A DNA stretch of 64,000 bases, from the NCBI GenBank assembly GCA_030432565.1, contig JAUIGV010000007.1:124001-188000 (forward strand), given 5' to 3'. Every line of letters starts with the position of its first letter. Positions within the stretch are counted from its first letter, which is position 1. This DNA comes from Verrucomicrobiia bacterium (lineage in GTDB: Bacteria; Verrucomicrobiota; Verrucomicrobiia; Verrucomicrobiales; Akkermansiaceae). The notes beneath the pieces were generated by a model. That model worked only from the letters and a program-made list of their open reading frames with translations, did no database searches and was not told the origin of the DNA. The translations under genes were made by a program, and so were the position numbers. Of the stretch, positions 38,496 through 63,735 are shown piece after piece.

Positions 38496-38525
38496 ACATG
38501 CGCAAAAGGACCATCGAACGACGCC
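38496..38525 (-). promoter_or_regulatory. Island promoter element before kinase 1
   Basis: On the minus strand this reads GGCGTCG, 13 bases, then TTGCGCATGT. The same boxes with the same 13-base spacing occur before the LRR gene at 39287 and, slightly changed, before the LRR remnant at 45966. TGCGC lies at 38504-38500, and only 6 bases separate the element from the ATG at 38489. The transcript could therefore be leaderless, or translation could begin at the next Met, 7 codons in. Confidence 0.6.
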
Positions 38526-38558
38526 ATATTGCGGAATCTTTTTTCGAAATTTCGGTCT

Positions 38559-39134
38559 TCAGGATGAATCGGTGTCTCCCAACTCCATCTGCAACCAAGC
38601 CTTGGCCCCCCGCCACGCCCGATCCACCGTCCGCGGCGAGATCTCGAGAATGGAGGCCGTTTCATCGACACTGAGCCCGGCAAAGTAGCGCAGCTTGACG
38701 ACTTGGGCCGCCGTTTCATTTTCGACCTCCAGCTTCGCCAGGGCCTCATCGACCGCGATGATTTCCTCGGACGGGGCATCCGTTTCGATGAGGAGCCGGG
38801 ATTCGTTCATCGTGGTGCGCACCTGATCTCCCCCGCGCTTCATGGCCTGTTTGCGTCGGGCGCTCTCGATCAAGATCCGCCGCATGGCTTCGGCCGCCGC
38901 GCCGAAAAAATGCCCGCGCGTCTTCCATTTCGGTTGATCGCCATCCGGTCCGGCCAAGCGAAGGTAGGCTTCGTGAACCAATGCGGTGGCCTGCAGGGTC
39001 TGCCCGCCCCGTTCTCCGGCCATCTTATGCGCCGCCATCCGGCGCAGTTCCTCGTAAGCCGCCGGGAGCAACCCGGCCGCCGCCTCGCCATCGCCGGCCT
39101 CCATGGCCTCGAGGATGCGAGTCACTTCATGCAT
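38559..39134 (-). CDS. ECF sigma factor, TALVHEAY type (sigma 1)
   Basis: I use the ATG at 39134 (191 residues, MHEVTRILEA), because it matches the start of sigma 2; the frame extends 72 codons further upstream but codes for an unlikely Arg/Trp-rich leader. Region 2 contains YEELRRMAAHKM and LQATALVHEAYLRL; region 4 contains GLSVDETASILEISPRTVD as helix-turn-helix. This is the sigma70_ECF group common in Planctomycetota and Verrucomicrobiota (ECF43-like). The acidic DxxD pair of region 2.2 is replaced by QATA, with Thr50 present. In the ECF43 factor EcfP of Vibrio, a Thr in this region is phosphorylated by a partner kinase to allow polymerase binding, so kinase 1 next door is the obvious activator here. 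That link is inference. Confidence 0.9.
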   Translation of the reverse strand: MHEVTRILEAMEAGDGEAAAGLLPAAYEELRRMAAHKMAGERGGQTLQATALVHEAYLRLAGPDGDQPKWKTRGHFFGAAAEAMRRILIESARRKQAMKRGGDQVRTTMNESRLLIETDAPSEEIIAVDEALAKLEVENETAAQVVKLRYFAGLSVDETASILEISPRTVDRAWRGAKAWLQMELGDTDSS

Positions 39135-39196
39135 TTCACATAATTCACCACAGATAAGGAAGCCTTGTCGAGATTGGAAAAAAAGTGCTGCCGGGT

Positions 39197-39226
39197 GGCG
39201 TCGCCTGCGCCGCGCTTTGCGCATGT
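39197..39226 (+). promoter_or_regulatory. Island promoter element before the LRR_5 gene
   Basis: GGCGTCG at 39197-39203, 13 bases, then TTGCGCATGT at 39217-39226. Both boxes and the spacing match the element before kinase 1 exactly. The LRR_5 start codon is 60 bases downstream. It could serve the four plus-strand genes up to 45850, which have gaps of only 63-91 bases. Confidence 0.65.
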
Positions 39227-39286
39227 GTTGATGTCCCCCGCGTTTTTCTCGCCGCCGGACGCCGGAAAACCAGAACCACCACAAGC

Positions 39287-40504
39287 ATGAATCCCACCAA
39301 GCCTTCGGCCCTTTTCCTCCTCCTTTATCTTTTCTTGGCCTCCCTTCCATCGGCCCGCGCCGAGCAGTTTGGATTGTTCACCTACGAGGTGAACAATGGA
39401 GAGATCACCATCACCGATTACCCGGAGGACGCCACCGGAGAAGTCGAGATCCCGGCAGAGATTGACGGGTTGCCGGTGACGATGATCCGCTGGCGCGCCT
39501 TCGCCGGCTGCACCGGCCTCACCTCCGTTACTATCCCGGACAGCGTTACCTACATCGGCTACCAGCCTTTCTCCGCTTGCAGCGATCTCACGTCAATCGA
39601 GGTGGACGCCCTGAACCCCGAATTCAGCAGTCTCAACGGGGTGCTCTTCAATAAGGACAGGACACGGCTCATCCATTATCCGGAGGGGAAAGCAGGAGAC
39701 TACCTGATTCCAGACAGCGTCACCTCCATTGCTTCCCAGTGGTGCTTTTCATTCATCCTGGGGGGCGGAGGGATCTGCATCGGCAGCGGAGCGTTTGGGG
39801 ACAGTAGCAAGCTCACCGGCGTTGGGATCCCTTCCGGGGTGACCAGCATCGGAGCGGAGACCTTCAACGGGTCCCCCGCCCTCACAACGATCACCATACC
39901 CGCCAGCGTGACTTCGATCGGCAATGAGGGTAACGTCTATCCGTCCGGGGATCCTTTGTCGGGGGCCTTCGAGGACTGTACGAGCCTGCACTCCGCCATC
40001 TTCCTCGGTGATACCCCCACCAAGTTCGACGAAAACACCTTCGCCAATACCGCCCCGGACTTCACCATCTATTACCTAAGCACCAGCACCGGTTTCACCT
40101 CGCCTACATGGAACGGATACCCGACTATCATGCTGGACGAGGTCACCCATCCCGCCGCTCCTTGGCTCGTGAGCCATGGCCTTCCCCACGACACCAACCT
40201 GCACCAGGATCTCAACGGGGACGGCGTGAGCCTGCTCATGGCCTACGCCCTGAACCTCGACCCCAAGGAGAACCTCAAGGGCCGCATGCCCGAGCCGATG
40301 GTCGGGGCCACCTCACTGGGCCTCTCCTTCCACGCCGTCGCCCCCGGCATCAGCTACCTTGTCGAGACCAGCACCGATCTGCAGAGCTGGACCACTGACG
40401 GTGTGAACTGGTCGGAGCTTGCAGAGGACGGCCACCGCACTGCCTCAGTCGAGCGCAACGGCCCCCGCCGCTTCCTGCGCCTCCGTCTGGTCGGAGCCAA
40501 TTGA
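39287..40504 (+). CDS. Secreted BspA-like LRR_5 protein
   Basis: The ATG at 39287 gives 405 residues with a signal peptide (MNPTKPSALF to PSARA). The frame opens earlier, but the extra 34 codons do not resemble a signal. The mature protein has an N-terminal segment FGLFTYEVNNGEITITDYPE, then a few LRR_5/BspA-type repeats (GCTGLTSVTIPDSVTYIG). These are interrupted by an insert of the pattern NPEFSSLNGVLFNKDRTRLI. It ends with the island's C-terminal domain (YLVETSTDLQSWTTDG). It is the short relative of the 1867-residue protein at 46403-52006; the N-terminal segment and insert are also preserved in the remnant at 45966-46285. Likely outside the cell, binding surfaces or polymers; no enzyme motif. 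Confidence 0.85.
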   Translation: MNPTKPSALFLLLYLFLASLPSARAEQFGLFTYEVNNGEITITDYPEDATGEVEIPAEIDGLPVTMIRWRAFAGCTGLTSVTIPDSVTYIGYQPFSACSDLTSIEVDALNPEFSSLNGVLFNKDRTRLIHYPEGKAGDYLIPDSVTSIASQWCFSFILGGGGICIGSGAFGDSSKLTGVGIPSGVTSIGAETFNGSPALTTITIPASVTSIGNEGNVYPSGDPLSGAFEDCTSLHSAIFLGDTPTKFDENTFANTAPDFTIYYLSTSTGFTSPTWNGYPTIMLDEVTHPAAPWLVSHGLPHDTNLHQDLNGDGVSLLMAYALNLDPKENLKGRMPEPMVGATSLGLSFHAVAPGISYLVETSTDLQSWTTDGVNWSELAEDGHRTASVERNGPRRFLRLRLVGAN

Positions 40505-40595
40505 AGCCAAGCCAGCCCCACTCAACAAAAGACTCACCACTTAGCCGCCCTTCCTGACTCCCATCATCAATCCCCCAAATCCAACAACTCATCAA

Positions 40596-41873
40596 ATGAA
40601 AAAAACAGTAACAACCATCCTCTCTCTCTTCGCCCTCGCAGGAGCATCCAACGCCGACGAGGAAATCACCAAGAAAGTCATCTGGGACAACGGTCCTTTT
40701 GACACCGTCCTGTTTTCCGGATTTTTCTCTTCAAGAGACGTCTGTGGCGACGATTTTCAACTCTCCCGGAACACCGTCATTGGCTCGTTGACGGTCTGGG
40801 TTCATGACATCTACCCGACAGGTGAAGTGAAGTCCGTGGGAGAAATCGATTCCCTCGATGCCTTCACGGGCACCTTGTCGGTCGGATTTTACCGGGATGG
40901 CGGAGATGCCCCGGGCGCGTTTGTCGCGAGCCGCTCCATCGTCAACCCGGAGATCGTGGATACCGAAGCCATCTCCCCCGTGGAGGAGCATGTATTCCGC
41001 ATCCATGGGGATTTCTCCACCCCCCTGACCCTCCCGAAAGGAGACTACTGGATCGTCTTCCATAACGGCACCTGGCTTTCGCCGCACGAAGGACCCAACG
41101 ACCTGATCATTCGTGGAACCCAGGCGCAATCAGGATCACGCGCCGTGATTGCGGACAGCCCGACCGCCCCCGCAGGTTGGACTGACCATGCCGACGTCCG
41201 CGACCTCGCCTTCCAACTTCACACGACCCAAGGCTTCCTGGGCCACGACATTTCAGTCTTTCTTAGGTATTACAATGGCAATAACCTCCAGGGAAGATTC
41301 GGTCCCCCTTATATTTTAGGCACCGAGCAAGTCGGTCCGAATATCGAATTTGAACCATGGCGCAATGAGCTAGGAGCAGCAGGGGGATTTGATTTTGACG
41401 CTTTCTCCATCGAGATTGACGAATCCACTCTTTGGGACTTTGGAACCGCCGCCTCCGGCAATTTCAACGGTTACGTCTTCGAAGACACCAATGACACCCT
41501 TCCTGATTTCCTTTCAGTGACACTCGACGAATCCGTCTCCACGAGAGTGCCATCACAAATCCTGGTCAGCCCGAACACCATCTGGGTCAACGATGAATCA
41601 TACTTCTACGGACCAGATGAATTCGTCCGCCTCATCGTCACCTTCGCCGAGAAGCGCCCGGCCCCCGTCATCTCGCTCTCCCCGGGAACAAAGGGCAGCA
41701 TGCTCCTCGAAGCCCCGACCGTCGTTGGCAAAACCTATCAATTCGAGCGGTCCACTGACTTGCAAAACTGGGTCCCCTTTGACCTTCGCTATACCGCAAC
41801 CTCCCCCTTCATCACAACCCATCTCAAGCCCACGGGGCTCAAAGAGTTCTACCATCTGCGCGAAGTGGAATAG
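40596..41873 (+). CDS. Secreted protein of unknown function with STDLQNW C-terminal domain
   Basis: This 425-residue protein starts with a signal peptide (MKKTVTTILS to ASNADEE). The middle (about 30-200) is a beta-rich region of the type GDDFQLSRNTVIGSLTVWV and GDYWIVFHNGTW, often seen in secreted verrucomicrobial proteins, followed by a second region without recognisable family. The last 70 residues (KTYQFERSTDLQNWVPFD to FYHLREVE) match the conserved C-terminal domain shared by several neighbours, which may be a sorting or anchoring domain. It lies 91 bases after the LRR_5 gene and 63 bases before the next gene, all on the same strand, so probably one operon. No catalytic residues identified. 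Confidence 0.75.
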   Translation: MKKTVTTILSLFALAGASNADEEITKKVIWDNGPFDTVLFSGFFSSRDVCGDDFQLSRNTVIGSLTVWVHDIYPTGEVKSVGEIDSLDAFTGTLSVGFYRDGGDAPGAFVASRSIVNPEIVDTEAISPVEEHVFRIHGDFSTPLTLPKGDYWIVFHNGTWLSPHEGPNDLIIRGTQAQSGSRAVIADSPTAPAGWTDHADVRDLAFQLHTTQGFLGHDISVFLRYYNGNNLQGRFGPPYILGTEQVGPNIEFEPWRNELGAAGGFDFDAFSIEIDESTLWDFGTAASGNFNGYVFEDTNDTLPDFLSVTLDESVSTRVPSQILVSPNTIWVNDESYFYGPDEFVRLIVTFAEKRPAPVISLSPGTKGSMLLEAPTVVGKTYQFERSTDLQNWVPFDLRYTATSPFITTHLKPTGLKEFYHLREVE

Positions 41874-41936
41874 TCCACCGGTTCCCTCTTCTTGAAGCCC
41901 ACTCGCCTATCAGCAAACCCTTCGAAAAACATTCTC

Positions 41937-43820: not shown

Positions 43821-43891
43821 CACCCGATGGACCACGCCCATCCTCGCCCGGAAGCGGTCAATAACCCTGCCACCTTCAGCCTGCCGAAATC

Positions 43892-45850: not shown

Positions 45851-45902
45851 CACCCGACTTGTTCTCCCGATTCCCGATATTTCAGAAAATCGGAAATCAA
45901 GT

Positions 45903-45932
45903 GGCGCTCCGCTCAGCCGTAAATGCGCATGT
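45903..45932 (+). promoter_or_regulatory. Island promoter element before the LRR_5 remnant
   Basis: GGCGCTC at 45903-45909, 13 bases, then ATGCGCATGT at 45923-45932. This is the same spacing as before kinase 1 and the 39287 LRR gene, with small changes in the first box. It has outlived the open reading frame that follows. Confidence 0.5.
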
Positions 45933-45965
45933 CCCAAGAAGACCACCTATCCGAACCATAACTCC

Positions 45966-46285: not shown

Positions 46286-46344
46286 GAGCTTCGAACCCGC
46301 GCCTGGCGGGAATCACCGTAAAAATCAAAAAATCAAAAAAAGCT

Positions 46345-46369
46345 GACGTGTTTTCAATCCGGAATGCGC
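46345..46369 (+). promoter_or_regulatory. Island promoter element before the giant LRR_5 gene
   Basis: GACGTGTTTT (46345-46354), 10 bases, then TGCGC (46365-46369) followed by ACGTAAG. It has exactly the 10+10 spacing of the GACAGGGTTT elements further right. The ATG at 46403 lies 34 bases downstream. An A-rich tract precedes it, as also before the elements at 60756 and 63704. Confidence 0.65.
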
Positions 46370-46402
46370 ACGTAAGGAGTAAGAAATCATCCCACTCCTC
46401 TC

Positions 46403-49400
46403 ATGAAAGCCATTTTCACCATTCTCACTCTCCTCCTCGTCGTTCAGTCAGCCCGTGCTGCTCAAATTGGTCCCCTTCACTATGCCATCGATTCTGAGGA
46501 AATCACAATCAATAGCTGCGACCGGAACACCAGCGGAGAAGTCGTCATTCCAGACGAAATCGACGGCCTCCCCGTTACCGCCATCCACCACTTCGCTTTC
46601 TATGATTCCCGCCAGCTCACAAAGATCACCATTCCGGCTTCCGTGCAATGGATCGGCAACGGAGCCTTCCGCAACTGCACACAACTGGAAAGCATCAATC
46701 TTCCCGTCGGCCTCATCTCGCTGGAGTCGGACCTTTTTGCAGGTTGCGCCAAACTCAACGAACTCATCCTCCCACAGGGACTGACCCACATCCAATCCGG
46801 TGCCCTCTACGATTGCCGCTCCTTGGACGGCGTCATTATCCCCGAAACAGTCACGACCATCGGCATGATGGCCTTTGCCGGATGTCACTCTCTCACCGAA
46901 ATCACTATTCCCGACAGCGTCACCACTGTGGGGAGAAGACTCTTCGAGGATTGCCGGGAGCTCACCAGCATCACCATGGGCAAAAAAGTCAATACTCTCA
47001 GCCCCGAATCCTTCAACGGATGCAGCAAGCTCACCCGTCTGGTCGTCGATCCCGAGAACCCAACCTACACCACCCAGGACAACGTTCTCTTCAACAAGGA
47101 TCAGACCGAGCTCATCCTCTACCCCGAAGCTCTTTCGGGTTCATACGTGATTCCGGACAGCGTCACCCAGATTCAAGCCGAAGCCTTCGGCAGATGCCAG
47201 GGCTTAACCGAAATCACCATCGCAGAAGGCATCACCGACATTCCCAACTTCCTTTTCGTCGACTGCAACAACTTGGAGCAAATCACCCTCCCGTCTTCCA
47301 TCGAATCCATTGGACAAGGCGCATTCAAAGGTTGTTCCAGGCTGCAGGAAATCAACCTCGAAGAAGGGATCACCAGCATCGGTGCTTCAGCCTTCGAAAA
47401 TTGTGACACCCTTACCTCCATCAAGATTCCCACCACCCTGACCCAGCTTAGCAACAATCTCTTCTACGGTTGCCAAAGCCTCGCCAACCTCACCCTTCAC
47501 GACGATATCACCAGCCTGGGAAACTCCACTTTCGAAAATTGCTCAGCCCTCACCACCTTCCACTTCCCGGCGAAGGTCACCAACCTCGGCAGCAGAACCT
47601 TCTCCCGCTGTCATCAACTCACCTCGGTCACTCTGCCTGAAGGAATCACCCACATTGGGACGGGCTCTTTTTCCTCATGCTCCAACCTCACCACCATTCA
47701 CCTTCCGGAGAGCATCACCAACATTTATTCTGAAGCCTTTAGCTACTGTCCCAAACTCTCTTCGATCGACCTCCCCGACAACCTGCAACGCCTCGATTCG
47801 CAAGCCTTCAAATCTTGCACCAGCCTGACCAGCATCACCCTCCCGGGCACTCTCATTTCTCTCGGGTCCAGGGTCTTCCAATATTGCGAAGGCCTCACCG
47901 AAATCACCCTCGAGGAAGGCCTCACCACCACCGGCAACGAGACCTTTGCCTCCCTCTTCAACCTCACCACCGTCAGTCTTCCCAGCACCCTCACCACGAT
48001 TGGATCCAAGGCCTTCTCCGGTTGCCCCAAGCTCAGCCGCATCAACTTCCCTCCCAATCTGACCACCATCGGAGCAGAAGCCTTCTACCACTGCAGAGGC
48101 CTCACCTTTCTCTCCTTCCCTGACAGTGTGACCGCGATTCAATACAAGGCGTTCGCCTACTGCTCGAGCCTGACGTCCGTCATCCTTCCTCCCAACCTCT
48201 CCCAACTGGGGGAAGACGTCTTTTTGGCAAGTCCTGCCATCACCTCCATTCGCATCGCCCCCGGAAACCCCACCTTCTCCGTGGTCAATGAATCCCTCAT
48301 TCGGAACAACACCCTCATCTTTTTTCCCCCCGCTCGTTCCGGCGGCTACACCATCCCGGAAGACGTCACCAGAATTGCCGCTTACGCCTTCAGAGGAAGC
48401 TCGAAACTCACCCACCTCATCATCCCGGAAGGAATCACCGCCATCGAAACCGGAGCCTTCATCTCTTGCCCGGAACTCACCTCGGTGATCCTTCCCGAGA
48501 GCCTCGCCTCCATCGGCCACAGCGCATTCGCCGACTGCGTAAGTCTCGCCACGGTCACGCTCCCCAAAAGTCTCACCAGCATCGGCGACAGCGCCTTCAG
48601 GCGTTGTGAAAGCCTCACCCAGCTCACCCTTCCCCCCAATGTCACCCACCTCGGCAGATCCGCATTTGCCTTCTGCAACAACCTCCAAAACATTACCCTC
48701 AACGAAAATCTGACCCGCATCAACGACAAGACCTTCTACCAATGTGCGGCCCTCTCAAACCTCACCATTCCCACCTCCGTCACCACCATTGGCTACGAGG
48801 CCTTCCACCATTGCCATGGCCTCAAATCCCTCAACCTGACTCCGGGGAATCTGCAATCGATCTACAACGAAGCCTTTAGCTCGTGCACCAACTTACGATC
48901 CGTCGATATCCCCGAAGGCCTCACCCTGCTAGGCGACTCTGCTTTCGCCAATTGCGAGAGCCTCACGCACCTGACCCTACCTTCCACTCTTCGCCATGCC
49001 GGACGCACCGTCTTCAGCTCCTGCGAATCCTTGACCGCAGTCACCCTCCCTGAAGGCATTCAATCCCTCGGCGACTATTTCTTCAATTCCTGCATCGCTC
49101 TCGAGACCATCACGCTTCCTTCCACTCTCACCAATCTTCCGTACGGAACGTTCGCATACTGCTCCAGCCTTCGCGATATCACCCTCCCCGATGGTCTCGA
49201 AACCCTGGGATCGGCCACCTTTGCTGGTTGCACCAGCCTTTCCGAAATCACCATTCCCGGGTCCGTCCAGACCATCCGCTCCAGAGCCTTCTTCAACTGC
49301 ACCAGTCTGAAAACAGTCACCTTCAACGAGGGACTCCAACGCATCGAAGATCATGCCTTCTACGGCTGCACCAATTTGGTCGAACTCACCTTCCCCGAGT

Positions 49401-52006: not shown

Positions 52007-52143
52007 ACTGAAGCCACCCACCCGCCAGACCCTCAAAGCCATGAACAGTCCATCATTAAAAATCCACCATCTCCAGACCAATAGGCCGGGCGAGCGATGG
52101 GAAGACACGAAGCGGGTGCCGACTGATTTTTTTGGAGAAACCT

Positions 52144-52168
52144 GATACTTTCTCCCGCTCTTTCGCGA
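52144..52168 (+). promoter_or_regulatory. Decayed island promoter element before the sulfotransferase remnant
   Basis: GATACTTTCT, then CCCGCTCTTT, then CGCGA followed by ATGTCTG. It aligns base for base in spacing with the element at 62674-62698 before the intact sulfotransferase, with GAC changed to GAT and CGCGC to CGCGA, as expected for decay together with its gene. Confidence 0.5.
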
Positions 52169-52178
52169 ATGTCTGCAC

Positions 52179-54143: not shown

Positions 54144-54303
54144 CATATTACTCCAACGATTGGTTCGGGCATCCGTGAACCTGGCGGAGCACGGGAGGTG
54201 TCAGATTAAAGGATCCTGACCTCTAAACCCACCGGGGGGAAAGTCGGCGTCTCTCTCCACGCTCCGCCCACATTCCCTCTGGATTTCGGAGCAATAAAAC
54301 AAC

Positions 54304-57300
54304 TTATTCAAGGGTCACTGCATAAAGGACGGGATTTGCCTTTTTGCCAGCGGAGACGAACTCAATATGACTGATCTTCTTCCCGGAGCGATTCTCCCAC
54401 GTCATTTGGGTCAGTCCAAGGGTTGCTTGCCGACTGTTGGCGCGGAAAGGGTGGGTCCAGGCGATGCCCTCCAAGTTGACGGTTTCCTGCGCAGGACGTT
54501 CACTGAGCCACAAACCAGCCACGTCGCGCCCTAGGACCATCTCCTCCTCTTCGAAGCCTGATCCATCTTCAAAGTGCATGCGATAGCGGGCAATCACCAC
54601 CCCAGGGTCATCCGCCACCGTTCGGGCTCCATGAAGGAAATGAATCTTGCGGCAGCTGCGCCCGACCGGAATCTCCACTTTTGCAGGGGTATCCGATTCC
54701 GTGCCGTCCTCCGAAGCGTCAGAACCGGAGTCCCCGCCTTTAAGCTGGATCCATCCCCGCAGATCGAAGGACGGTCCGCCCTTGGGATCGAAGCTCTCTG
54801 GCAGTCTCTCGAGGGCCACGGCAGGAGAACCAGGGCGAGGCGGATTCTTCTCATAGAGGCTCGAGGTGTAGACCTCCCCAAGATCGAGGCATTGGGGATC
54901 GAGGCCGGGATCGCGGGGCGGGACGCCCTCGACCTGATCGAGAAGCCTCAGGGCCTCCTCTTCCCGGCCCGAGGAGTAAAGGATCCAGGCCTTGCGCCGC
55001 CACCACTTCTTTCTTTGTCGTACTTTCACCGGCTCGAAGGAACCGGCCAGCGGCGCAAGGATGCGATCAATGGCTTCGATGGTCTCGGCGGGCCCGCCAA
55101 AGGTCCAGTGGAGAAAGGCGGCTTCTGCGTCAGAGAATTTCCCGCTCGCACTCAAGCCGGCCTCATCCGGAAAAGGATGTTCTCCGAGGGCGACTTCCAG
55201 GTCAAAGGAGACGTCGGAACTGTTCGGCCCTGACTGATGCACCTCGACCGCAAGCACGTTTTCGCCGAGACGCAGATGATGGCGGCCGGTCAGGCAAGGG
55301 ATGAAGGTATGCTCCTGCTCCCTTCCCACGGCGGAAAGCGCCCGTTTCTGATCATCGATCTTACCCACGGGCATGTTCGAGCGGAGAATTTCCTGCCCGT
55401 TCAGATAGACCACCGCCCCATCGTCGCGGAGCAGGCTCAGGATGAGCGCACCGGGGACCAGTTCCGTTTGGTTCGGGTCGTATTGAAAGCGATGTCGAAA
55501 ATAAAAGGCCATCCGCTCGGCCCCCTCGGGGCCTTTTCGGAGAACAGTCACTTCTCCATCTTCCCCATTCCGGCTGAACCCGAGGCGGGCCCGACCATCA
55601 GCCCAATCTTCGTCCGCAAACCCCGGCTCCTGCCACCCCACCGGGACCGACGAGTCAGGGTCGTCGAAGTATTTCCAGAAGGCCCCCTTGGGAACCACGA
55701 TCTCTTTTCGCCCGAACTCCACCCAATTGGCAAACAGCTCTCCGGACTCCTCGGCCGGAGGCCACCAATCAGCCTCGGCGACCATTTTCGAGCGTTCCAA
55801 GATGGCCTGCCTCATCAGCCCGAGGGCCGCCGCGCCCTGTCCCGCGTCCCGCAAGTCCACCGACTGCTTCTCCAGCGCTTCGCACTGACTCTCGACAGTG
55901 ATTCGCGTGAGACGACCTTTGATTTCGGTAACCAGGTTGCGGGACCCTCCATCCTCAGGCTGCAACGAGGCGGCCACTTGGGCATGGTAACGAGCCCGTT
56001 CAAGATTTCCGATTGGATCGCCGTCTTGCATTGCCGCGAGAGAGCGGGCCAGCTCCAAATGAGCGGGATGATGACCGGGCGCCATCCGGATCACCTCCCG
56101 CAAACTTTCCAGGACGGGCTCTCCAGCCAAGGTCCGGTCCTGCATGCGGTGACGGACATACTGGGATGTCGTCACCTCGGAAAAAGGCGAAATCGAACGC
56201 GTCTCCGGTGACTCGTAGAACCATCGGACATAACGACCGTAAAACTCATCTCCCTTTACCGCCTCGCGGGCCCGTTTTTCCAATTGTTTCCCTTCTTCGT
56301 GATCCACCTCGACCACGCGGTTGGAGTCATCAATTCGCAGGCCCACCACCCCCTCGATCCAGCCCGGGAGCCATTCCGGCACCTTGCGTTTGGGAAAGCG
56401 CGGAAGCTCCCACAATCTCACTTTGGAGTCGAGTCCGACAGTGAGTGCTCGATTTCCACTTGGACCAAAGGTGGCATATCGAGACTGTCCGTCATGCTCC
56501 ATCGGTTCGCTGAGGGGGAACCCTGTCGCGGCATCCCACACGCGGTCCATGCCGTCATCCGAGGCCGTGATGATCCTTTCACCCCACAGGTCGAAGGCGA
56601 CGTGATTGACCCAGGATTCGTGTTGCATCGGCACTCCCACCGGCTCGCCGGTGGTCGCGTCCCAAACCCGCGCCGTTCCGTCCCGGGAAGCGGTGGCAAT
56701 CCATCTTTCTTCCCCGGGACTGAAGGTACCGTAGGTGACTTCCTCCCCGTGCTTCATGGGTGGCCAGATCAACTGCCGACCGGTGGCAGTTTCCCAGACC
56801 CGAGCGGTGTGGTCATTGGAAGTCGTGAGAATCCGCGTGTCGTCTGCGCTGAAGCAAACACTCCTCACATAATCGGTGTGGCCTTCCTGACCGTAGTCCC
56901 CATCGAGCCGCCGGACCAAATCGCCGGTGTGGGCGTCCCACAGCAACACTTCGTTTGCCGAGGAAAGGGTGGCCACCAGACTGCCGTCGTGGCTTTGGGC
57001 CACCGCGTCGACCATCGTCTTGGTGAGCCGCAGGTCGGTCTCGAAGAAGGTGGGCGGAGTCTCTTCCCCGGGATTCCAGAGGAAAGGAGGACCCCCGCCC
57101 GCCGCATTCAGGACCTCCCAACCGTTCCCCCCATCCCGCGGTGGCACGAAGGTGGCGAATCCCACATATCCGCTTTCCAGGGAATCCTTTCGTTTCCAGG
57201 TGCCGGTGTCCCAAACCCGCACTCCCCCGCCCGGAGAGGCCCAGGTCGCAAGAAGAAGGGACCCGTCCGGACTGTAGTCAACCCATTCGACGACCGAATC

Positions 57301-60003
57301 GAGGCGGAATTCGCGTTCCTGGGTTCCGCGGGCCAGGTCCCAGACCCTCGCCCGTTGATCTTTCCCGCTCGAGACAAGATGAGTCCCGGCGGGGTGGAAG
57401 TTGGCACTGGTCACGAGCTCTTTCATTTCAACCTTGTCCGGGTTGCCGGGATGGTGAAATTCCTGGCACCGGGGAGTGGCCACGGGGGCCTTGACGAGAT
57501 GGCTTCGACCGCCCAGCCCGAAGGTGAGAATTTCATCACCATCGGGTTTCCACCGAGCCCCGAAGAAGCTCAACCCGCGGTCGACAGCGTCCCCGATCTT
57601 ATTTCCGCTCGCAGCGTCCCAGACCTCGACCCGTCTGTCATCGACAGTCAGGAATTGGTGTCCCCTGGGGTGAAAATGCACCGCCTTGAGCAGCCCCTGC
57701 ACTTGGATGGGAGGCTCGAATTGCGGTTTCCCGCTGGCGACATTCCAGACATGAACCCAGTCGTTGCCGGAACGGCTGGCCAGCAGCAACCCGTCCTGGC
57801 TGAACTCGAGGGCTCGCACCGACTCGGCGTGAAAAAAAGGCTCACCCACCGGCTCTCCACTGGCCACCTCCCAGAGCCTGACCGTCCGGTCTTCCGAGGC
57901 AGTGGCAAACGTTCGTCCATCCGGACTGAAGGCAAAATCCCAGATGGCGAGACCGGAAGGATGCCGGATCTCCCAGAGCTTGGCCCCGGATTGGGCATCG
58001 CAAAGAGTCAACCTTCGGTTGCGAATGAAGGCGAGCTGGCTTTCGTCGGGACTGAACATACCCTCCATCGCATTGGACCAACCCGGTTCCGGAATGGAAA
58101 AAAGCGCTTTTCCGGTTGCCGAATCGAACACCCAGACCTCGTTTTGATTCCTCTCGCTGTTTCGATAACTTCCTCCCGTGATAAAGGAACCCCCGCTGGG
58201 ACTGAATCTCGCAAAGTAGGTCTTCCCCTCAAGGACCACCGGCTTCCCGACCACATTCCCGGTTTCGTAGTTGTAAATGCGAAGGCACGAGACCTCGGAA
58301 GAAGTCGCACGGTGGTCTGCCAACAACCAAGGCTCGCTGGGATGAAAAGAGACATCAAAGCCGAAGTCCCGCCCCTGGTAGCCCGGGAGATCCGGAAGGG
58401 GTTTCCCCACCGGATCGCCGGTCCGGGCATTCCACACTTGGATCCCTGTTTCATCCTCGGTCGAGGTCGCCAACAGCGATCCATCGAGGCTGAGGGCGGC
58501 ATCTTGAGAGTTGGGAAAGAGCCGCTGCACGCGCGTGAAATCGTGCCGCTGCAGGGCCGACAGGAGCCTCTCGGCCGCCACCAGGTTTTCGTCATCCTCG
58601 CGAATCAATTGCGCCAGCTTCGCCATGCCCAGCCTCTTTTTTCCCGACGCCAGCAGCCCCTCGGCCTCTGCGTGACGCGCGATCAGGCTGATCCGGACGG
58701 CCCGGGCCTCGGAAGTCACGGCCTTTTCCCGGGCCTTTTTCTCCGAAAAGAAAAAGAGGGTACTCACGACCGCAGCAATCGCCAGACTGGCAACCACCGT
58801 GCCACCGGTGATGACGACCACCCGGTTTCTCCGCACATATTTACCAAAGCGATAAGCCAGGCTCGGTGCGCCCGCCTCTACCGGCTCGTCGGCGAGATAC
58901 CGCCTGACGTCCGCAGCCAGACCATTGGCGGTGTCGTAGCGGCGCTTGCGGTCCTTATCGAGAGCCTTCATCACGATCCAGTCGAGATCGCGGTCGATGC
59001 GCGTGGGCGGAATGATCTCGCGCGCGTTCCGGTTGGCGCGGTTTTGCCGAAGGGTGAGGCGGGTGCTCGGCCGGAGTGGCTCCTCCTCGCGGATCACCCG
59101 TCGAATTTCATCCTGACCAATCGAGGAAAGACGATTGGCATCAAGCGGAGTGGTTCCAGTGAGCAATTCATACAGAAGAACGCCCAGGGAGTAGATATCA
59201 CTGCGGGTATCGATGTCGAGACCGCTCATCTCGGCCTGCTCCGGACTCATGTAAGCCGGGGTCCCGATGAACTGCTCGAAGCGGGTGAAGAGCGTCTTTT
59301 GCGTGAGATCCTGCTGGGTTGCCTTGGCCACTCCGAAGTCGATGACCTTGGGGACCGGCTTGTCATCGTGCAGGGTCACCATGACATTCGACGGTTTGAG
59401 ATCCCGGTGAATGATCCCCTTTTGGTGGGCGTGCTGCACCGCACTGCAAACCTCCAGGAAAAGCTCCAATCGTTTCTCGGTGTCCAGTTTCTGTTCCTCA
59501 CAGAACTTCGTAATCGGAATGCCCCGCACCAATTCCATCACGAAATACGGCCTTCCCGCCTCGGTTGCCCCGGCATCGTAGACCCGGGCGATGTTGGGAT
59601 GATCCATCATCGCGAGCGCCTGGCGTTCAACCTCGAAGCGGGCCACTACCTGGCGGGTGTCCATTCCCAATTTGATGACCTTCACCGCCACCCGCCGTTT
59701 CACCGGCTCAAGCTGCTCCGCCATGAAGACCGAGCCAAAGGCCCCCTCCCCGATCCTTTGCAACAGCTTGTAGTGCCCCACCAGGGTGCCCGAAGCCAAG
59801 TCCCCGTCGTCCCGATCGTTCACCCCTTCGAAGGGCGGGTCTTCCATGAAACTCCCGCCCCCGGCGGCCTGATCTGCCTCCAGCAGCTCCATCACCCGTC
59901 CCTTCATGAACTCGTCGTCCCCGCAAGCCTCGTCGAGGTAAACCCGCAAGGTCTCGTCATCACCATCGAGGGGTGCCTCGGAAAAAATCTCAATCTCTCG
60001 CAT
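54304..60003 (-). CDS. Giant transmembrane Ser/Thr kinase with WD40 sensor region (kinase 2)
   Basis: This 1899-residue paralog of kinase 1 has the same domain order. The kinase domain is complete (IGEGAFGSVF, VAVK with Lys108, HRDLKPSN with Asp201, DFG 222-224, GTPAYMSPEQAEM). A membrane helix lies at about 394-419 and a short coiled coil follows. Next come WD40 repeats (TSNDHTARVWETATG), a TPR-like stretch, a galactose-binding-like domain (DDGAVVYLNGQEILRSNMP) and the conserved end (YAVTLE). Kinase parts are similar and WD40 parts strongly diverged, while the last roughly 290 codons are nearly identical in DNA to kinase 1. The sigma 2 gene ends 85 bases upstream, and the gap carries an island promoter element, so the kinase may be induced by its own sigma factor. 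The opposite strand is open for over 1200 codons, which I take as a composition artefact. Confidence 0.92.
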   Translation of the reverse strand: MREIEIFSEAPLDGDDETLRVYLDEACGDDEFMKGRVMELLEADQAAGGGSFMEDPPFEGVNDRDDGDLASGTLVGHYKLLQRIGEGAFGSVFMAEQLEPVKRRVAVKVIKLGMDTRQVVARFEVERQALAMMDHPNIARVYDAGATEAGRPYFVMELVRGIPITKFCEEQKLDTEKRLELFLEVCSAVQHAHQKGIIHRDLKPSNVMVTLHDDKPVPKVIDFGVAKATQQDLTQKTLFTRFEQFIGTPAYMSPEQAEMSGLDIDTRSDIYSLGVLLYELLTGTTPLDANRLSSIGQDEIRRVIREEEPLRPSTRLTLRQNRANRNAREIIPPTRIDRDLDWIVMKALDKDRKRRYDTANGLAADVRRYLADEPVEAGAPSLAYRFGKYVRRNRVVVITGGTVVASLAIAAVVSTLFFFSEKKAREKAVTSEARAVRISLIARHAEAEGLLASGKKRLGMAKLAQLIREDDENLVAAERLLSALQRHDFTRVQRLFPNSQDAALSLDGSLLATSTEDETGIQVWNARTGDPVGKPLPDLPGYQGRDFGFDVSFHPSEPWLLADHRATSSEVSCLRIYNYETGNVVGKPVVLEGKTYFARFSPSGGSFITGGSYRNSERNQNEVWVFDSATGKALFSIPEPGWSNAMEGMFSPDESQLAFIRNRRLTLCDAQSGAKLWEIRHPSGLAIWDFAFSPDGRTFATASEDRTVRLWEVASGEPVGEPFFHAESVRALEFSQDGLLLASRSGNDWVHVWNVASGKPQFEPPIQVQGLLKAVHFHPRGHQFLTVDDRRVEVWDAASGNKIGDAVDRGLSFFGARWKPDGDEILTFGLGGRSHLVKAPVATPRCQEFHHPGNPDKVEMKELVTSANFHPAGTHLVSSGKDQRARVWDLARGTQEREFRLDSVVEWVDYSPDGSLLLATWASPGGGVRVWDTGTWKRKDSLESGYVGFATFVPPRDGGNGWEVLNAAGGGPPFLWNPGEETPPTFFETDLRLTKTMVDAVAQSHDGSLVATLSSANEVLLWDAHTGDLVRRLDGDYGQEGHTDYVRSVCFSADDTRILTTSNDHTARVWETATGRQLIWPPMKHGEEVTYGTFSPGEERWIATASRDGTARVWDATTGEPVGVPMQHESWVNHVAFDLWGERIITASDDGMDRVWDAATGFPLSEPMEHDGQSRYATFGPSGNRALTVGLDSKVRLWELPRFPKRKVPEWLPGWIEGVVGLRIDDSNRVVEVDHEEGKQLEKRAREAVKGDEFYGRYVRWFYESPETRSISPFSEVTTSQYVRHRMQDRTLAGEPVLESLREVIRMAPGHHPAHLELARSLAAMQDGDPIGNLERARYHAQVAASLQPEDGGSRNLVTEIKGRLTRITVESQCEALEKQSVDLRDAGQGAAALGLMRQAILERSKMVAEADWWPPAEESGELFANWVEFGRKEIVVPKGAFWKYFDDPDSSVPVGWQEPGFADEDWADGRARLGFSRNGEDGEVTVLRKGPEGAERMAFYFRHRFQYDPNQTELVPGALILSLLRDDGAVVYLNGQEILRSNMPVGKIDDQKRALSAVGREQEHTFIPCLTGRHHLRLGENVLAVEVHQSGPNSSDVSFDLEVALGEHPFPDEAGLSASGKFSDAEAAFLHWTFGGPAETIEAIDRILAPLAGSFEPVKVRQRKKWWRRKAWILYSSGREEEALRLLDQVEGVPPRDPGLDPQCLDLGEVYTSSLYEKNPPRPGSPAVALERLPESFDPKGGPSFDLRGWIQLKGGDSGSDASEDGTESDTPAKVEIPVGRSCRKIHFLHGARTVADDPGVVIARYRMHFEDGSGFEEEEMVLGRDVAGLWLSERPAQETVNLEGIAWTHPFRANSRQATLGLTQMTWENRSGKKISHIEFVSAGKKANPVLYAVTLE
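54348..55212. repeat. Long near-identical repeat, copy 2 (3' end of kinase 2)
   Basis: Partner of 32800-33660: a direct repeat, nearly base-identical by eye, encoding the C-terminal part of kinase 2. Only scattered single-base differences are visible. About 21.5 kb separates the copies, so recombination between them could delete the whole surface-protein cluster in between. Confidence 0.8.
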
Positions 60004-60031
60004 TCTTGAAGTTCGTCATGATTTCTACCAC

Positions 60032-60060
60032 AGGCGCAAAAAACACCGAAACCCTGTCAA
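60032..60060 (-). promoter_or_regulatory. Island promoter element before kinase 2
   Basis: On the minus strand: TTGACAGGGTTT, 10 bases, TGCGC (60038-60034), then CTGTGG. The first box is identical to those at 60756 and 63704. It lies in the 85-base gap between sigma 2 and kinase 2, 31 bases upstream of the kinase ATG, consistent with a separate, sigma-dependent promoter for the kinase. Confidence 0.7.
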
Positions 60061-60088
60061 AATTCGCAAAGTTATTTTGCGATTCCAC

Positions 60089-60652
60089 TCAGAGTTCCAC
60101 CGAGACCTCCCGGTAAAGCCAGGCCCGAGCCCCCCGCCAGATGCGATGCACCGTGCTCTCGGAGGTCCCCAGGGCATGAGCCGTTTCCGGCACGGTTAGG
60201 CCGGCATAGTAACGCAGCTTCACCACTTCGGCATATTCCGGGCTCTCCACCTCCAGTTTTTGCAGGGCTTCCTCAATCGCGAGGATCTCCTCGGACGGAA
60301 CGGTGAATTCGAGCTGCGATTCATTGAGTTCGGTATGGCGGACATTCGACCCGCGCTTTTGGCTCATCTTCTTGCGGGCACTCTCAATCAAGATCCGGCG
60401 CATGGCCTCGGCGGCCGCGGTGAAAAAATGCCCCCGGCTGTCCCACTGCCGTTCCTCACCATCCGGCCCGAGCAATCTGACGTAGGCCTCATGGACCAAG
60501 GCGGTCGGCTGGAGGGTGTGTCCCGCTCTCTCCCCCGCCATCTTGTTGGCCGCAATCCGCCGCAATTCCTCATAAGCCAGCGGCAAGATCATCTCGCCGG
60601 CTTGCGAATCACCCGACTCCACAGCCTCAAATATTTTGGTGAGTTCACTCAT
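60089..60652 (-). CDS. ECF sigma factor, TALVHEAY type (sigma 2)
   Basis: This 187-residue paralog of sigma 1 has YEELRRIAANKMAGERAG and LQPTALVHEAYVRL in region 2 and ETAHALGTSESTVHRIWRGA as the region 4 helix-turn-helix. As in sigma 1, region 2.2 lacks the acidic DxxD residues used to bind the polymerase clamp (here QPTA), and Thr50 sits in that place, also flanked by Thr46. It belongs to the same ECF43-like group, in which activation by a Hanks kinase has been shown for Vibrio EcfP/PknT. No anti-sigma gene is present; kinase 2 directly downstream is the likely regulator. The divergent gene at 60829 carries an island promoter element facing away from it. Confidence 0.92.
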   Translation of the reverse strand: MSELTKIFEAVESGDSQAGEMILPLAYEELRRIAANKMAGERAGHTLQPTALVHEAYVRLLGPDGEERQWDSRGHFFTAAAEAMRRILIESARKKMSQKRGSNVRHTELNESQLEFTVPSEEILAIEEALQKLEVESPEYAEVVKLRYYAGLTVPETAHALGTSESTVHRIWRGARAWLYREVSVEL

Positions 60653-60753
60653 GACATTTTCCTGCTTCTTCTTGCATTCAAGCGGTCCGCTGCCGGGGCC
60701 GCAACTCCTATCCTCGCGATCCTCACCGGCCCTCCTCTAAAAAGTAGAAAATC

Positions 60754-60787
60754 ATGACAGGGTTTTCCTCCTTTCTGCGCTTGAGAG
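60754..60787 (+). promoter_or_regulatory. Island promoter element before CSLREA gene 2
   Basis: ATGACAGGGTTT (GACAGGGTTT at 60756-60765), 10 bases, TGCGC (60776-60780), then TTGAGAG. It is shared nearly base for base with the element at 63704-63735, including the downstream TTGAGAGG. An ATG at 60754 is part of the promoter box and should not be taken as the gene start. Confidence 0.75.
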
Positions 60788-60828
60788 GGCGACGCCTTTT
60801 TCCGTCACCCTCCCACTCTGTCCAAGCC

Positions 60829-62637
60829 ATGACTCACACCCCTTCCAAAAAATCGACCCGCCACCGCGGCCTCCACCTGTCCCGCACCCAGCGCAAGGCT
60901 CTCCGTCGCCGGAGCCAAAACGCGCTGCGCTACTGGAAATTCCTCACCCGCTGCTTCACCTCGCTGCGCAGGCGGCCCGCCTTCCGCTGGATCCGCGCCT
61001 TCAAGCGACTCCGCACCGCCTTCGGCGCCCTGGCGCTGGCCTGCTGGCTGCCCACCCTCGCGCAAGCCGATACCTTCACCGTCAACAGCAACTCCGACAT
61101 CTCGGAGGAAGAAGACGGAGACCTCACCCTGCGCGAGGCGATCACCCGGGCCAACGAGAACCCGGGCCCGGACACCATTGACTTCACCGACGAGCTCTCC
61201 GGGGCGGTGATCAAATTGACCCAAGGCGAACTCGCCATCAGCGACGACCTGAGCATTGACGCCTCTGGCCTTGCCGAAGCGCCCATCATCGATGCCGATG
61301 AAAAATCCCGCGTGATGCACTTCACCGAATCCGAGGGCGATCTGGTGCTCACCAAGCTCACGCTGCGAAATGGCAGAGTGAGAAATGGACATGGAGGCGG
61401 CGTTCTCTCTGCCTCAAGCGGCTCCCTCATTTTGGTGAACTCACTGGTGAGTGATCATTTCGTCCAATACGGAAATGGTGGTGGCCTGTTCTCCCGCGGA
61501 ACCATCACTCTTCAGAATTCAACGATCAGAGGGAACGTCAGTATGGAAGACCTTGCTAATCTTCCAATAGCCCCAGGAGATAGCAATATTTTCGAGGGCC
61601 AAGGCGGTGGGATCTACAGCGGCGGAGCTCTCACAATCACCGAATCAACGATTAGCGGAAATTATGGGCATCTCGGCGGTGGCGGAGTTTACTCGCGATC
61701 CGGCTCCGTGATTCTCAAAAGCTCGACAGTCAGTGGAAACCGATGTGATTCATATTACTCGAGAGGGGGAGGCATCCGCCTGAATTCGAGCTCCATCACC
61801 ATTTCCCATTCGACGATCACTCAAAACGGATCATCGACTGGAGGTGGGATTTTCTTCGGTGTCTCCGTCGGTGAAGCGGTCAAACTTTCGAATTCCATCG
61901 TCGCCGGGAACTTCGTCAGATGGGAGGACATCTATTCCCCTCCCGTATCCGTCTTCGCTTCCGACCTCCTTTTCTTCTCTGGATCCCCGACCACCCTCGA
62001 GGTCTCCCACTGCCTCATCGGCACGAGCAGGGGTGCCCGCCTCGACGAGGCCCAACTCAACGAGAACAACCTCATCGACGTCGACCCGCTCCTCGCTCCG
62101 CTCGCCGATAATGGTGGCCCAACCCAAACGATGCTGCCTTATCCCGAATCACCCGTCATCAATGCCGGGGCCCGGACCTGGCACACCGCCGATCAACGGG
62201 GGCTCGCTCATACCGGAGCCCCCGACATCGGGGCCGTTGAATTCCAGGGGACGTCCGACCTGCCCCGGGTCCTCCCACTCGACCACGATGGCGACGGCTC
62301 CTCCTTTCAAATTGAAAAGGCGGTGGGCACCAACCCCTTTGTGGCCGACCCGAATGACCCCCGCCTCCTTCAGCGGCCCGTTTTCAACGCCGAAGGCCAG
62401 GCCGTGCTGAGCTTTGGGATTGCTGAAACCGCCCTCCCCGGCACCCGTTGGATCCTCGAACGGACCACCGACCTCCTCACCTTCGAAGCAATCCATCGCT
62501 TCGATGGCACGGAACACCTCACCTACGAGGGCCGCCCGGTCACCATCACCGAGACCGACTTCGGGGTGTCCGTCATCGACGAGGCTCCACCAACCGGTCG
62601 GGTCTTTTACCGGCTGAGAATTGCCTTGGCGGAATGA
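60829..62637 (+). CDS. CSLREA-type right-handed beta-helix surface protein (copy 2)
   Basis: I use the ATG at 60829 (602 residues, MTHTPSKKSTRHRGLH), because it matches the start of copy 1 (MTTTPTKKSTRHRGLH). A longer in-frame ATG at 60754 lies inside the promoter element. The Arg/Lys-rich leader of about 62 residues, the hydrophobic core (LGALALACWLP), the cleavage site (LAQA) and the CSLREA-like start (GDLTLREAITRANENPG) are almost identical to copy 1. The beta-helix repeats in the middle have diverged and rearranged. The LADNGGPTQTMLPYPESP segment and the shared C-terminal domain (ILERTTDLLTFEAIHRF) are again close. Predicted cell-surface protein under control of the island promoter class. 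Confidence 0.85.
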   Translation: MTHTPSKKSTRHRGLHLSRTQRKALRRRSQNALRYWKFLTRCFTSLRRRPAFRWIRAFKRLRTAFGALALACWLPTLAQADTFTVNSNSDISEEEDGDLTLREAITRANENPGPDTIDFTDELSGAVIKLTQGELAISDDLSIDASGLAEAPIIDADEKSRVMHFTESEGDLVLTKLTLRNGRVRNGHGGGVLSASSGSLILVNSLVSDHFVQYGNGGGLFSRGTITLQNSTIRGNVSMEDLANLPIAPGDSNIFEGQGGGIYSGGALTITESTISGNYGHLGGGGVYSRSGSVILKSSTVSGNRCDSYYSRGGGIRLNSSSITISHSTITQNGSSTGGGIFFGVSVGEAVKLSNSIVAGNFVRWEDIYSPPVSVFASDLLFFSGSPTTLEVSHCLIGTSRGARLDEAQLNENNLIDVDPLLAPLADNGGPTQTMLPYPESPVINAGARTWHTADQRGLAHTGAPDIGAVEFQGTSDLPRVLPLDHDGDGSSFQIEKAVGTNPFVADPNDPRLLQRPVFNAEGQAVLSFGIAETALPGTRWILERTTDLLTFEAIHRFDGTEHLTYEGRPVTITETDFGVSVIDEAPPTGRVFYRLRIALAE

Positions 62638-62673
62638 CGAAATTGGATGCTCTCCAATTTTTGTGAAAAAACT

Positions 62674-62698
62674 GACGTCTTTTTCCGCTCTTTCGCGC
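62674..62698 (+). promoter_or_regulatory. Island promoter element before the sulfotransferase
   Basis: GACGTCTTTT (62674-62683), 10 bases, CGCGC (62694-62698), then ATGTCTC. The first box resembles that before the giant LRR_5 gene (GACGTGTTTT). Transcription would start near 62706, leaving a leader of about 145 bases that contains two hairpins. Confidence 0.6.
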
Positions 62699-62708
62699 AT
62701 GTCTCAAT

Positions 62709-62787
62709 GACGGGCAATGATGTTCGTCACCGTAAGCAATCCAACCATCGCCGCCCCAGGAAATCCTTCCGGGGGCGGCGATTTTTC
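62709..62787 (+). promoter_or_regulatory. Two-hairpin sulfotransferase leader with terminator-like stem (putative attenuator)
   Basis: Hairpin I: GACGGGC (62709-62715), loop AATGAT, GTTCGTC (62722-62728), seven pairs including two G-U. Hairpin II: ATCGCCGCCCC (62747-62757) with GGGGCGGCGAT (62772-62782), followed by further T residues to about 62786, a typical intrinsic terminator. It lies downstream of the promoter element at 62674 but upstream of the start codon at 62851. It may therefore act as an attenuator, or simply end transcription from the CSLREA gene. The leader is preserved at 52179-52248. Confidence 0.6.
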
Positions 62788-62850
62788 AAATCGTCTTCGC
62801 CAATTCCCATCCTTCCCGCCACTCTCATTCCCACCTCAATTTTCTTCCTC

Positions 62851-63675
62851 ATGAAATTTCACTTTATTTCCGGACTACCCCGTTCCGGGTCCACCCTGAC
62901 CTCCGCCCTTCTGCGCCAGAACCCGCGCTTTCATGCCGGCATTTCCAGTCCGGTTGCCGGGCTCATGGAGGGCATCATTTCCAATGTCTCAGCCGGCACC
63001 GAAATGGCCAGTATGGTCAACGGGGAACAACGCGCCCGCATCCTCCGCGGCCTCTTCGAAAGCTATTACGCCGGTCTCGAGGAGGAGGTGGTTTTTGATA
63101 CCAACCGGGCCTGGACCGCCCAACTGCCCGCGCTCATGAAGCTCTTTCCGGAATCCAAACTGATCTGCCTGGTGCGCAATGTGAGCTGGATCATGGATTC
63201 CATGGAGCGTCAGTTCCGCGAAAATGCCTTCGAGCACACCCGCCTCTTCAACAACCCGTCCGAACGCTCCAGCGTCTACACCCGGCTCGAGGCCCTGGCC
63301 CACGCCGACCGGCTCGTCGGTTTCCCCTGGCACGCCCTGCGCGAAGCCTGTTACTCGGAATTCGCGGACCGCCTGGTCCTCGTCGACTACGACCTCCTCA
63401 CCGCCCGGCCGGCCGACGTGATGGAGCTGCTCTACCAATTCCTCGGGGAGGAACCCTTCGAACACAACTTTGAGCAGGTCGACTTCGATTCACCCGTCTT
63501 CGACCGCCAACTGGGACTGGACGGGCTGCACCGGGTGCACCGCAAGGTCGCCCCGAGGCCACGCAAGACCATCCTCCCGCCCGATCTCTTCGAGCGCTAT
63601 GCCAAAATGGATTTCTGGCACCACCTTCCCGACTCTCCGGCCTTCCGCATTGTGGCCGAGCCGAAGGAATCCTGA
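62851..63675 (+). CDS. Sulfotransferase family protein
   Basis: The ATG at 62851 gives 274 residues; an upstream in-frame ATG (62647) would translate through the hairpins and promoter. The protein opens with the 5'-phosphosulfate loop GLPRSGSTL (residues 8-16) for PAPS binding. The 3'-phosphate motif is CLVRNVSWIMDSMER (Arg109, Ser112). The fold continues with LVDYDLLTARPADVMELLY and the C-terminal RKTILPPDLFERY. No signal peptide, so it is cytoplasmic and transfers sulfate from PAPS to an unknown acceptor, perhaps a polysaccharide, glycolipid or protein tyrosine. A truncated second copy lies at 52277-52489. Control probably combines the island promoter with the leader hairpins. Confidence 0.88.
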   Translation: MKFHFISGLPRSGSTLTSALLRQNPRFHAGISSPVAGLMEGIISNVSAGTEMASMVNGEQRARILRGLFESYYAGLEEEVVFDTNRAWTAQLPALMKLFPESKLICLVRNVSWIMDSMERQFRENAFEHTRLFNNPSERSSVYTRLEALAHADRLVGFPWHALREACYSEFADRLVLVDYDLLTARPADVMELLYQFLGEEPFEHNFEQVDFDSPVFDRQLGLDGLHRVHRKVAPRPRKTILPPDLFERYAKMDFWHHLPDSPAFRIVAEPKES

Positions 63676-63703
63676 GCCCCTCCGAAAAAAAATCAAAAAC
63701 CGT

Positions 63704-63735
63704 GACAGGGTTTGTCCGGGTTTTGCGCTTGAGAG
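63704..63735 (+). promoter_or_regulatory. Island promoter element before the right-edge gene
   Basis: GTGACAGGGTTT (GACAGGGTTT at 63704-63713), 10 bases, TGCGC (63724-63728), then TTGAGAGGACAA. Nearly identical to the element at 60754-60787. The start codon at 63780 is about 50 bases downstream. Confidence 0.75.

Follow-up and report, generated by a model that had tools for sequence, protein, structure and literature searches.

Which regulator reads the short bipartite elements that stand before the kinase and surface-protein genes of a gene island in a Verrucomicrobiia bacterium? The window analysed here is a stretch of 64,000 nucleotides (assembly GCA_030432565.1, contig JAUIGV010000007.1, hereafter C62; C62:124001-188000). 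It contains two genes for sigma factors of the extracytoplasmic function (ECF) type, sigma 1 and sigma 2, each followed by the gene of a giant kinase (kinase 1 and kinase 2). A preliminary description of the sequence had proposed that nine genes or gene remnants share a promoter-like element read by both sigma factors. Nine elements were indeed present in the window (E1–E9; Table 1), but a tenth (E10) was found beyond its edge. Comparisons within and among genomes led us to the view that the elements are probably promoters of the two island-encoded sigma factors, which would use two different −35 keys and drive the kinases together with nearby surface-protein genes.

A matrix built from the nine elements placed exactly these nine on top on both strands of the window (21.3–34.8 bits; next match 13.2 bits). 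In leave-one-out scoring they ranked 7–20 among approximately 128,000 positions. A 57-position profile run against the 5.93-Mb genome, with 150 of 541 first-look candidates scored, gave ten matches at E < 0.01, all within 29 kb (C62:162,492-191,236). Nine of these were the sequences used to build the profile; the tenth, E10, was not used but is a copy of E9. The weakest of the ten was E3 (E = 0.0011, leave-one-out rank 20). The confinement to 29 kb agrees with the local regulon suggested earlier. A genome-wide scan for matches inside genes had been named as a check. By the chosen gene starts all ten are intergenic, and the only other match at E ≤ 10 (E = 0.25, contig C72) lay on the sense strand inside a 325-aa dehydrogenase-like open reading frame (ORF). 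For E2, E5, E7, E8, E9 and E10, the element falls within the longest mechanical ORF of its strand, and later start codons were chosen there. Among 116 genomes (this genome and relatives), the profile gave matches elsewhere in seven, one weak match each (E 0.003–0.047), approximately the level of chance. Two hand-made patterns were discarded. A strict one (A-tract, GNC, one spacing, YGCGM) was badly built and gave six genome matches, all of them outside the island, while its reversed control gave nine; TGRC-N-YGCGMNTG was too loose, with 81 matches against 22 for its reversed form.

The elements consist of an A-rich tract (present in most of them), a −35 box and a −10 box, and the shared stretch extends from approximately −40 to +10 around the −10 box. 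Anchored on [TC]GCG[CA], a G was found 20 bases upstream in 9/9 elements of the window, as had been described. This distance of exactly 20 bases nevertheless merged two −35 registers, TGGCG with a spacer one base longer (E1–E3) and TGAC or TGAT (the other six of the nine). Three forms were distinguished: TGGCG-N19-CGCAT (E1, E2, E3), TGACA-N18-CGC[CT]T (E6, E7, E9, E10) and a mixed form (E4, E5, E8). The mixed elements resemble the TGACA form in their −35 box (TGACG or TGATA) and the TGGCG form in the A of their −10 box (CGCAC, CGCAT, CGAAT). The −35 hexamer and the CGC box are separated by 17 bases in E4–E10 and 18 in E1–E3, within the approximately 16–18 bases of an ECF-type spacer. The classical ECF boxes, AAC at −35 and CGT at −10, were absent from the elements, which carry TG[A/G]nn and CGCA[T/C] instead; the classical boxes are described as the hallmark of an early, small set of ECF factors in the part of the literature cited (PMC8103513). 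A sigma-54 promoter was dismissed by eye, as there is no GG-N10-GC spacing.

Some of the sites are related by descent. E9 and E10 lie inside a duplicated 264-bp segment (92.8% identical; window 63476-63739 versus L012 3975-4238) that holds the 3' end of a sulfotransferase gene and the promoter and stops just past the −10 box. The gene after E9 or E10 thus apparently gained its candidate promoter by local copying. The recipient would most simply be the E10 gene, because an intact sulfotransferase gene precedes E9, and such copying would offer a simple reason for a local regulon. E5 and E8 lie inside another duplicated segment (74%), so the sites are not all independent. The choice-of-anchor Q genes at 43892-45850 and 60829-62637 resemble each other in two stretches near their two ends, with identities of 88% over 546 bp and 83% over 622 bp. 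Could the elements then be mere leftovers of segmental duplication, copied along with genes and sharing no function? The two duplicated pairs, and the paralogy of the sigma factors, the kinases and several targets, are what such a history would leave. In other pairs, however, identity outside the element was at background: in 10-base bins it was 0.33–0.73 inside −40 to +10 and 0.22–0.31 outside, with four related pairs of 45 excluded. The element is also common to unrelated genes, and its class recurs after sigma genes elsewhere and covaries with the sigma factor, as described below. We therefore consider the duplication explanation highly improbable.

Loci of sigma relatives came from genomes related to this one and from a set of named genomes in which Planctomycetota predominate. 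Of their sigma genes 113 were kept; 111 regions were usable and 109 entered cross-validation, in folds that ignore kinship. A two-box search after the sigma stop codon returned TG(A/G)nn-N18-CGCA(T/C), with a single gap length in 75%. In five-fold cross-validation with the window locus excluded, an element of at least 8 bits followed the PF07638 sigma gene in 61/109 loci, mostly of Planctomycetota and Verrucomicrobiota. At the same threshold, controls gave 5/109 on the other strand, 4/102 and 5/102 in two regions 600 bp downstream, and 11/112 inside the sigma gene. The same class of element thus recurs after related sigma genes in other genomes, which speaks for the ECF-type promoter proposed earlier. 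A kinase-like frame was present within 3 kb downstream in 84/101 loci with enough sequence, and the element (at least 8 bits, model trained on the same loci) in 57/84 kinase loci versus 7/17 others. Upstream of the sigma gene, 6/111 regions held a match in sense and 12/111 in antisense; at 10 bits or more, the counts were 1/111 and 9/111. The absence of any excess in sense, where the count was at control level, gives no sign of classical sigma autoregulation. The antisense matches fit divergent promoters like E2 and E7. A motif search on the antisense strand returned a different, A-rich motif.

The −35 bases follow two residues in the recognition helix of the adjacent sigma factor. In a set of 75 loci (at least 7 bits) and five sigma factors of this genome, the three strongest covariations between sigma columns and −35 bases involved residue 166 (bases 3 and 4) and residue 169 (base 5). 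In the training loci, residue 166 corresponded to bases 3–4 as follows: Ala to AG (27/28), Arg to GC (23/27), Ser to AC (4/10) and Thr to GG (2/5). For residue 169 and base 5, the pairs were Lys with C (14/17), Asp or Glu with G (30/32), Asn, Tyr or His with A (9/15) and Gln with G (0/1).

We fixed the rule first and only then examined the sequences of another 90 loci. These were 90 of the 130 matches to the PF07638 family, which come from just 15 genomes; their genomes were the same as those of the training loci, their sigma factors different. The test set comprised 85 sigma genes, 68 of which shared less than 80% identity with the training set. An element was present for 33 of these 68; the residue lay outside the rule in eight (166) and six (169) of the 33. 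Residue 166 was right for bases 3–4 in 19/25 (6.4 on average and 13 at most in 2000 permutations) and residue 169 for base 5 in 22/27 (9.3 on average and 18 at most). After removal of sigma factors at least 80% alike, 18/24 and 21/26 remained right. By residue, the successes were Arg 10/10, Ala 6/6, Thr 2/4 and Ser 1/5 at position 166, and Lys 6/6, Asp or Glu 11/14 and Asn, Tyr or His 5/7 at position 169. For divergent elements in the independent set the rule was right in 2/3 and 1/3, which are few cases. Kinship does not explain the rule, because bases followed residues among pairs of equal identity: within all four bands of sigma identity, bases agreed far more often where residues agreed, and in pairs at least 62% identical base 5 agreed in 107/127 where residues agreed versus 3/74 where they did not. 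For three sigma factors with Tyr166 and Arg169 (L191, L194, L220), which are outside the rule, the −35 boxes all start with TTCGACAG and have C at base 5, as for Lys; this pair is a possible further letter of the rule.

An operator for a repressor or activator, or another kind of DNA-binding site, would be a different reading of the elements, and the short palindrome TGCGCA in most −10 boxes of the island could be taken for one. The palindrome does not characterise the wider class, however, in which the box is CGCA[T/C] with T commonest before it. The orientation to the gene is fixed, the two boxes stand at promoter-like spacing, and the −35 bases covary with the recognition helix of the sigma factor. 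An operator therefore seems even less probable than a relic of duplication.

With the rule, the sites can be assigned to sigma factors. Sigma 1 (R166/D169) fits the TGGCG sites E1–E3, which are the three nearest its gene. Sigma 2 (S166/H169) fits the TGACA sites E6, E7, E9 and E10, and its gene is flanked by E6 and E7. The second assignment is less firm, because Ser is the least reliable letter of the rule and C or T replaces the A of the class in the −10 box. E4 and E8 fit sigma 2 best, if weakly, and E5 fits none of the seven related sigma factors found in the genome well. That sigma 1 and sigma 2 read the element, as the preliminary description had it, is thus supported by the residue-to-base rule in a modified form, with two keys, apparently different subsets and three intermediate sites in place of one shared element.

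A third related sigma factor, sigma 3 (R166/E169; C62:114357-115051), is encoded approximately 9 kb before the window and flanked on both sides by TGCGGA...CGCATG, the same layout with another key. Its site was one base out of register in the covariation set, and both the 75 training rows and the test exclude it. In the other register it reads GC and then G, as the rule expects.

Several observations weigh against a reading by the two local sigma factors. Ser166 of sigma 2 is the weakest letter (AC in 4/10 in training and 1/5 in the test), and the −10 box of the four TGACA sites is CGC[CT]T, whereas the usual fourth base in the wider class is A (0.90). E4, E5 and E8 fit neither sigma 1 nor sigma 2 well, and sigma 3 belongs to the same residue class as sigma 1. 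At 8 bits or more, 27/84 kinase loci had no element. The cross-phylum model alone is unspecific: the window contains equal scorers (top 15.3, at 31006), and E5 is outside its best 45 window positions. Part of this would be expected if another sigma factor of the genome read the elements, or if both local ones did so without discrimination. The genome has 34 Sigma70_r2 matches and the comparison covered seven related sigma factors; the intermediate sites and the residue class shared by sigma 1 and sigma 3 point the same way. Yet the sites lie clustered about the genes of sigma 1 and sigma 2, S166/H169 occurs only in sigma 2 among the seven, and the sites flanking sigma 3 are TGCGGA. The TGGCG and TGACA subsets, moreover, differ as the residues of sigma 1 and sigma 2 predict. 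We regard these alternative readers as unlikely, though less so than the other two explanations, and retain sigma 1 and sigma 2 as the probable readers.

Table 1. Elements and genes of the island. Positions are those of the window unless a contig is given; the last column names the sigma factor that each element fits.
Feature	Position	Strand	Description	Fit
E1	38497..38526	-	TGGCG-N19-CGCAT; between sigma 1 and kinase 1	sigma 1
E2	39196..39225	+	TGGCG-N19-CGCAT; divergent from sigma 1, upstream of LRR_5 gene	sigma 1
E3	45902..45931	+	TGGCG-N19-CGCAT; upstream of LRR gene remnant (remnant by tblastn)	sigma 1
E4	46344..46372	+	TGACG-N18-CGCAC; upstream of 1867-aa LRR_5 gene	intermediate type
E5	52143..52171	+	TGATA-N18-CGAAT; upstream of sulfotransferase gene fragment	intermediate type
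E6	60031..60059	-	TGACA-N18-CGCCT; between sigma 2 and kinase 2	sigma 2
E7	60755..60783	+	TGACA-N18-CGCTT; divergent from sigma 2, upstream of beta-helix gene	sigma 2
E8	62673..62701	+	TGACG-N18-CGCAT; upstream of sulfotransferase gene	intermediate type
E9	63703..63731	+	TGACA-N18-CGCTT; upstream of laminin-G gene running off the window	sigma 2
E10	C62:191183-191236		TGACA form; outside the window, 3.5 kb past E9; upstream of 676-aa gene with TSP3 repeats	sigma 2
sigma 1	38559..39134	-	ECF sigma factor (PF07638, TIGR02999), R166/D169, QATA motif	
sigma 2	60089..60652	-	ECF sigma factor (PF07638, TIGR02999), S166/H169, QPTA motif	
kinase 1	32751..38489	-	1912 aa; protein kinase domain, WD40 repeats, HRD and DFG motifs	
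kinase 2	54304..60003	-	1899 aa; protein kinase domain, WD40 repeats, HRD and DFG motifs	
LRR_5 protein	39287..40504	+	405 aa from chosen start; signal-peptide-like start by eye	
LRR_5 protein	46403..52006	+	1867 aa; signal-peptide-like start by eye	
beta-helix protein	60829..62637	+	choice-of-anchor Q domain; 602 aa from chosen start; follows E7	
sulfotransferase	62707..63675	+	322 aa from chosen start	

The two modules have the same layout. Each sigma gene is followed by its kinase gene, with E1 or E6 between the two and E2 or E7 pointing away on the other side of the sigma gene, and none of the ten island elements stands directly before a sigma gene in sense. The sigma factors scored 202.6 and 199.4 bits against PF07638 (sigma 1 and sigma 2; cut-off 21.1) and 210.4 and 202.7 bits against TIGR02999 (cut-off 126.15). 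They are 63% identical and form one clade with a sigma factor of a same-genus genome (G021; support 0.96). Genes downstream of the elements encode the two kinases, two LRR_5 (leucine-rich repeat, LRR) proteins, a beta-helix protein with a choice-of-anchor Q domain, a sulfotransferase, a laminin-G protein and a TSP3 protein; remnants of an LRR gene and of a sulfotransferase gene follow E3 and E5. Like the LRR proteins, the laminin-G and TSP3 proteins have signal-peptide-like starts, as judged by eye. Past the kinase domain, near residues 393–414, both kinases have a hydrophobic stretch, which may place the WD40 region on the outer side of the membrane (from hydropathy only). The ATG codons after E1 (38489, minus strand) and E8 (62707, plus strand) lie 15 and 13 bases past the first base of the [TC]GCGC box. 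If CGCAT occupies −12 to −8, start codons so near the −10 box would leave these transcripts with hardly any leader.

How might such a circuit be switched on? ECF factors of group ECF43 lack the acidic DAED motif and become active once a Thr at that place has been phosphorylated by a neighbouring kinase, according to the passages cited (PMC8103513, PMC13147305, PMC8999054). The pairs of an ECF43 factor and a Hanks-type kinase described in them are EcfP/PknT of Vibrio parahaemolyticus and EcfK/PknS of Xanthomonas citri, and the likeness to the island is that of an ECF sigma factor beside a kinase; ECF59, 61, 62, 217 and 283 are listed as other kinase-linked groups (PMC8999054). The island has the corresponding features, an adjacent Hanks-type kinase gene and a region 2.2 with a phosphorylatable Thr and no acidic motif. 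DAED is replaced by an uncharged Thr motif, QATA in sigma 1 and QPTA in sigma 2 (residues 48–51, matched by eye to the ECF43 phosphorylation site), as it is by the consensus QTTA in ECF43 and STTA in EcfP in those passages. The third residue of the motif was Thr in 161/165 aligned sigma factors and Ser in four. The kinases of the island differ from those of the ECF43 pairs in their long WD40 regions. Compared with ECF43 as described in the cited passages, the promoter sequence, the two-key arrangement and the ten-site local regulon are described only here.

By analogy with ECF43, we infer a likely mechanism in which the kinase would phosphorylate the Thr of the QATA or QPTA motif, whereupon the sigma factor would bind RNA polymerase. 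The activated sigma factor would transcribe the kinase gene and the nearby LRR, beta-helix, laminin-G, TSP3 and sulfotransferase genes from the elements, and sigma 2 would perhaps read the intermediate sites E4, E5 and E8 too. Since the elements precede kinases and divergent genes, not sigma genes, positive feedback would run through the kinase promoter rather than through the sigma gene.

ECF factors are already known to have promoter bases set by recognition residues: in the code reported by Todor et al. 2020 (PNAS), as described in PMC8103513, and likewise in the present rule, bases of the −35 box are determined by residues of sigma4. That code is described there as built from autoregulated ECF factors (PMC8103513); here, in contrast, the promoter precedes the kinase and is not in excess upstream of the sigma gene. 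By eye, residue 169 aligns with K170 of SigW and R171 of Escherichia coli sigmaE, which are described as contacting the template G at −31 (PMC6713349), and C at base 5 with Lys169 is consistent with that contact. The boxes differ, being TG[A/G]nn and CGCA[T/C] here and GAAAC or GGAAC with a CGT-type box in the portion of the SigW and sigmaE work cited. What is added to the known residue code is the position of the promoter before the kinase, the boxes of the family, a two-residue rule tested independently and an island with two keys and ten sites; the rule itself is not claimed to be absent from print.

A priori prediction of ECF target promoters is described as limited, as it relies on known pairs and on autoregulated ECF factors (PMC8103513). 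For the present sigma family, the promoter before the neighbouring gene, usually a kinase, offers a way to read the target sequence. An impression of nine similar sites has become a rule whose residues and bases are named and can be swapped as a test, and in the two sigma paralogs of the island the differences in residues are matched by differences in the neighbouring promoters. In 48 other loci (at least 8 kb), 18 extra copies of the locus's own −35 key were found versus 9.7 expected, so few that the ten-site island looks unusual in that sample. For the family as a whole, we see about an even chance that the PF07638 sigma factors linked to kinases in Planctomycetota and Verrucomicrobiota make up a large collection of insulated local circuits. 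Every paralog would have a private −35 key, set mainly by two residues of the recognition helix, and feedback would run via the kinase promoter, with no autoregulation at the sigma gene. Regulons would grow by the copying of short promoter segments onto neighbouring surface-protein genes, and in this island a duplicated sigma-kinase module would have split into two keys, leaving intermediate promoters behind.

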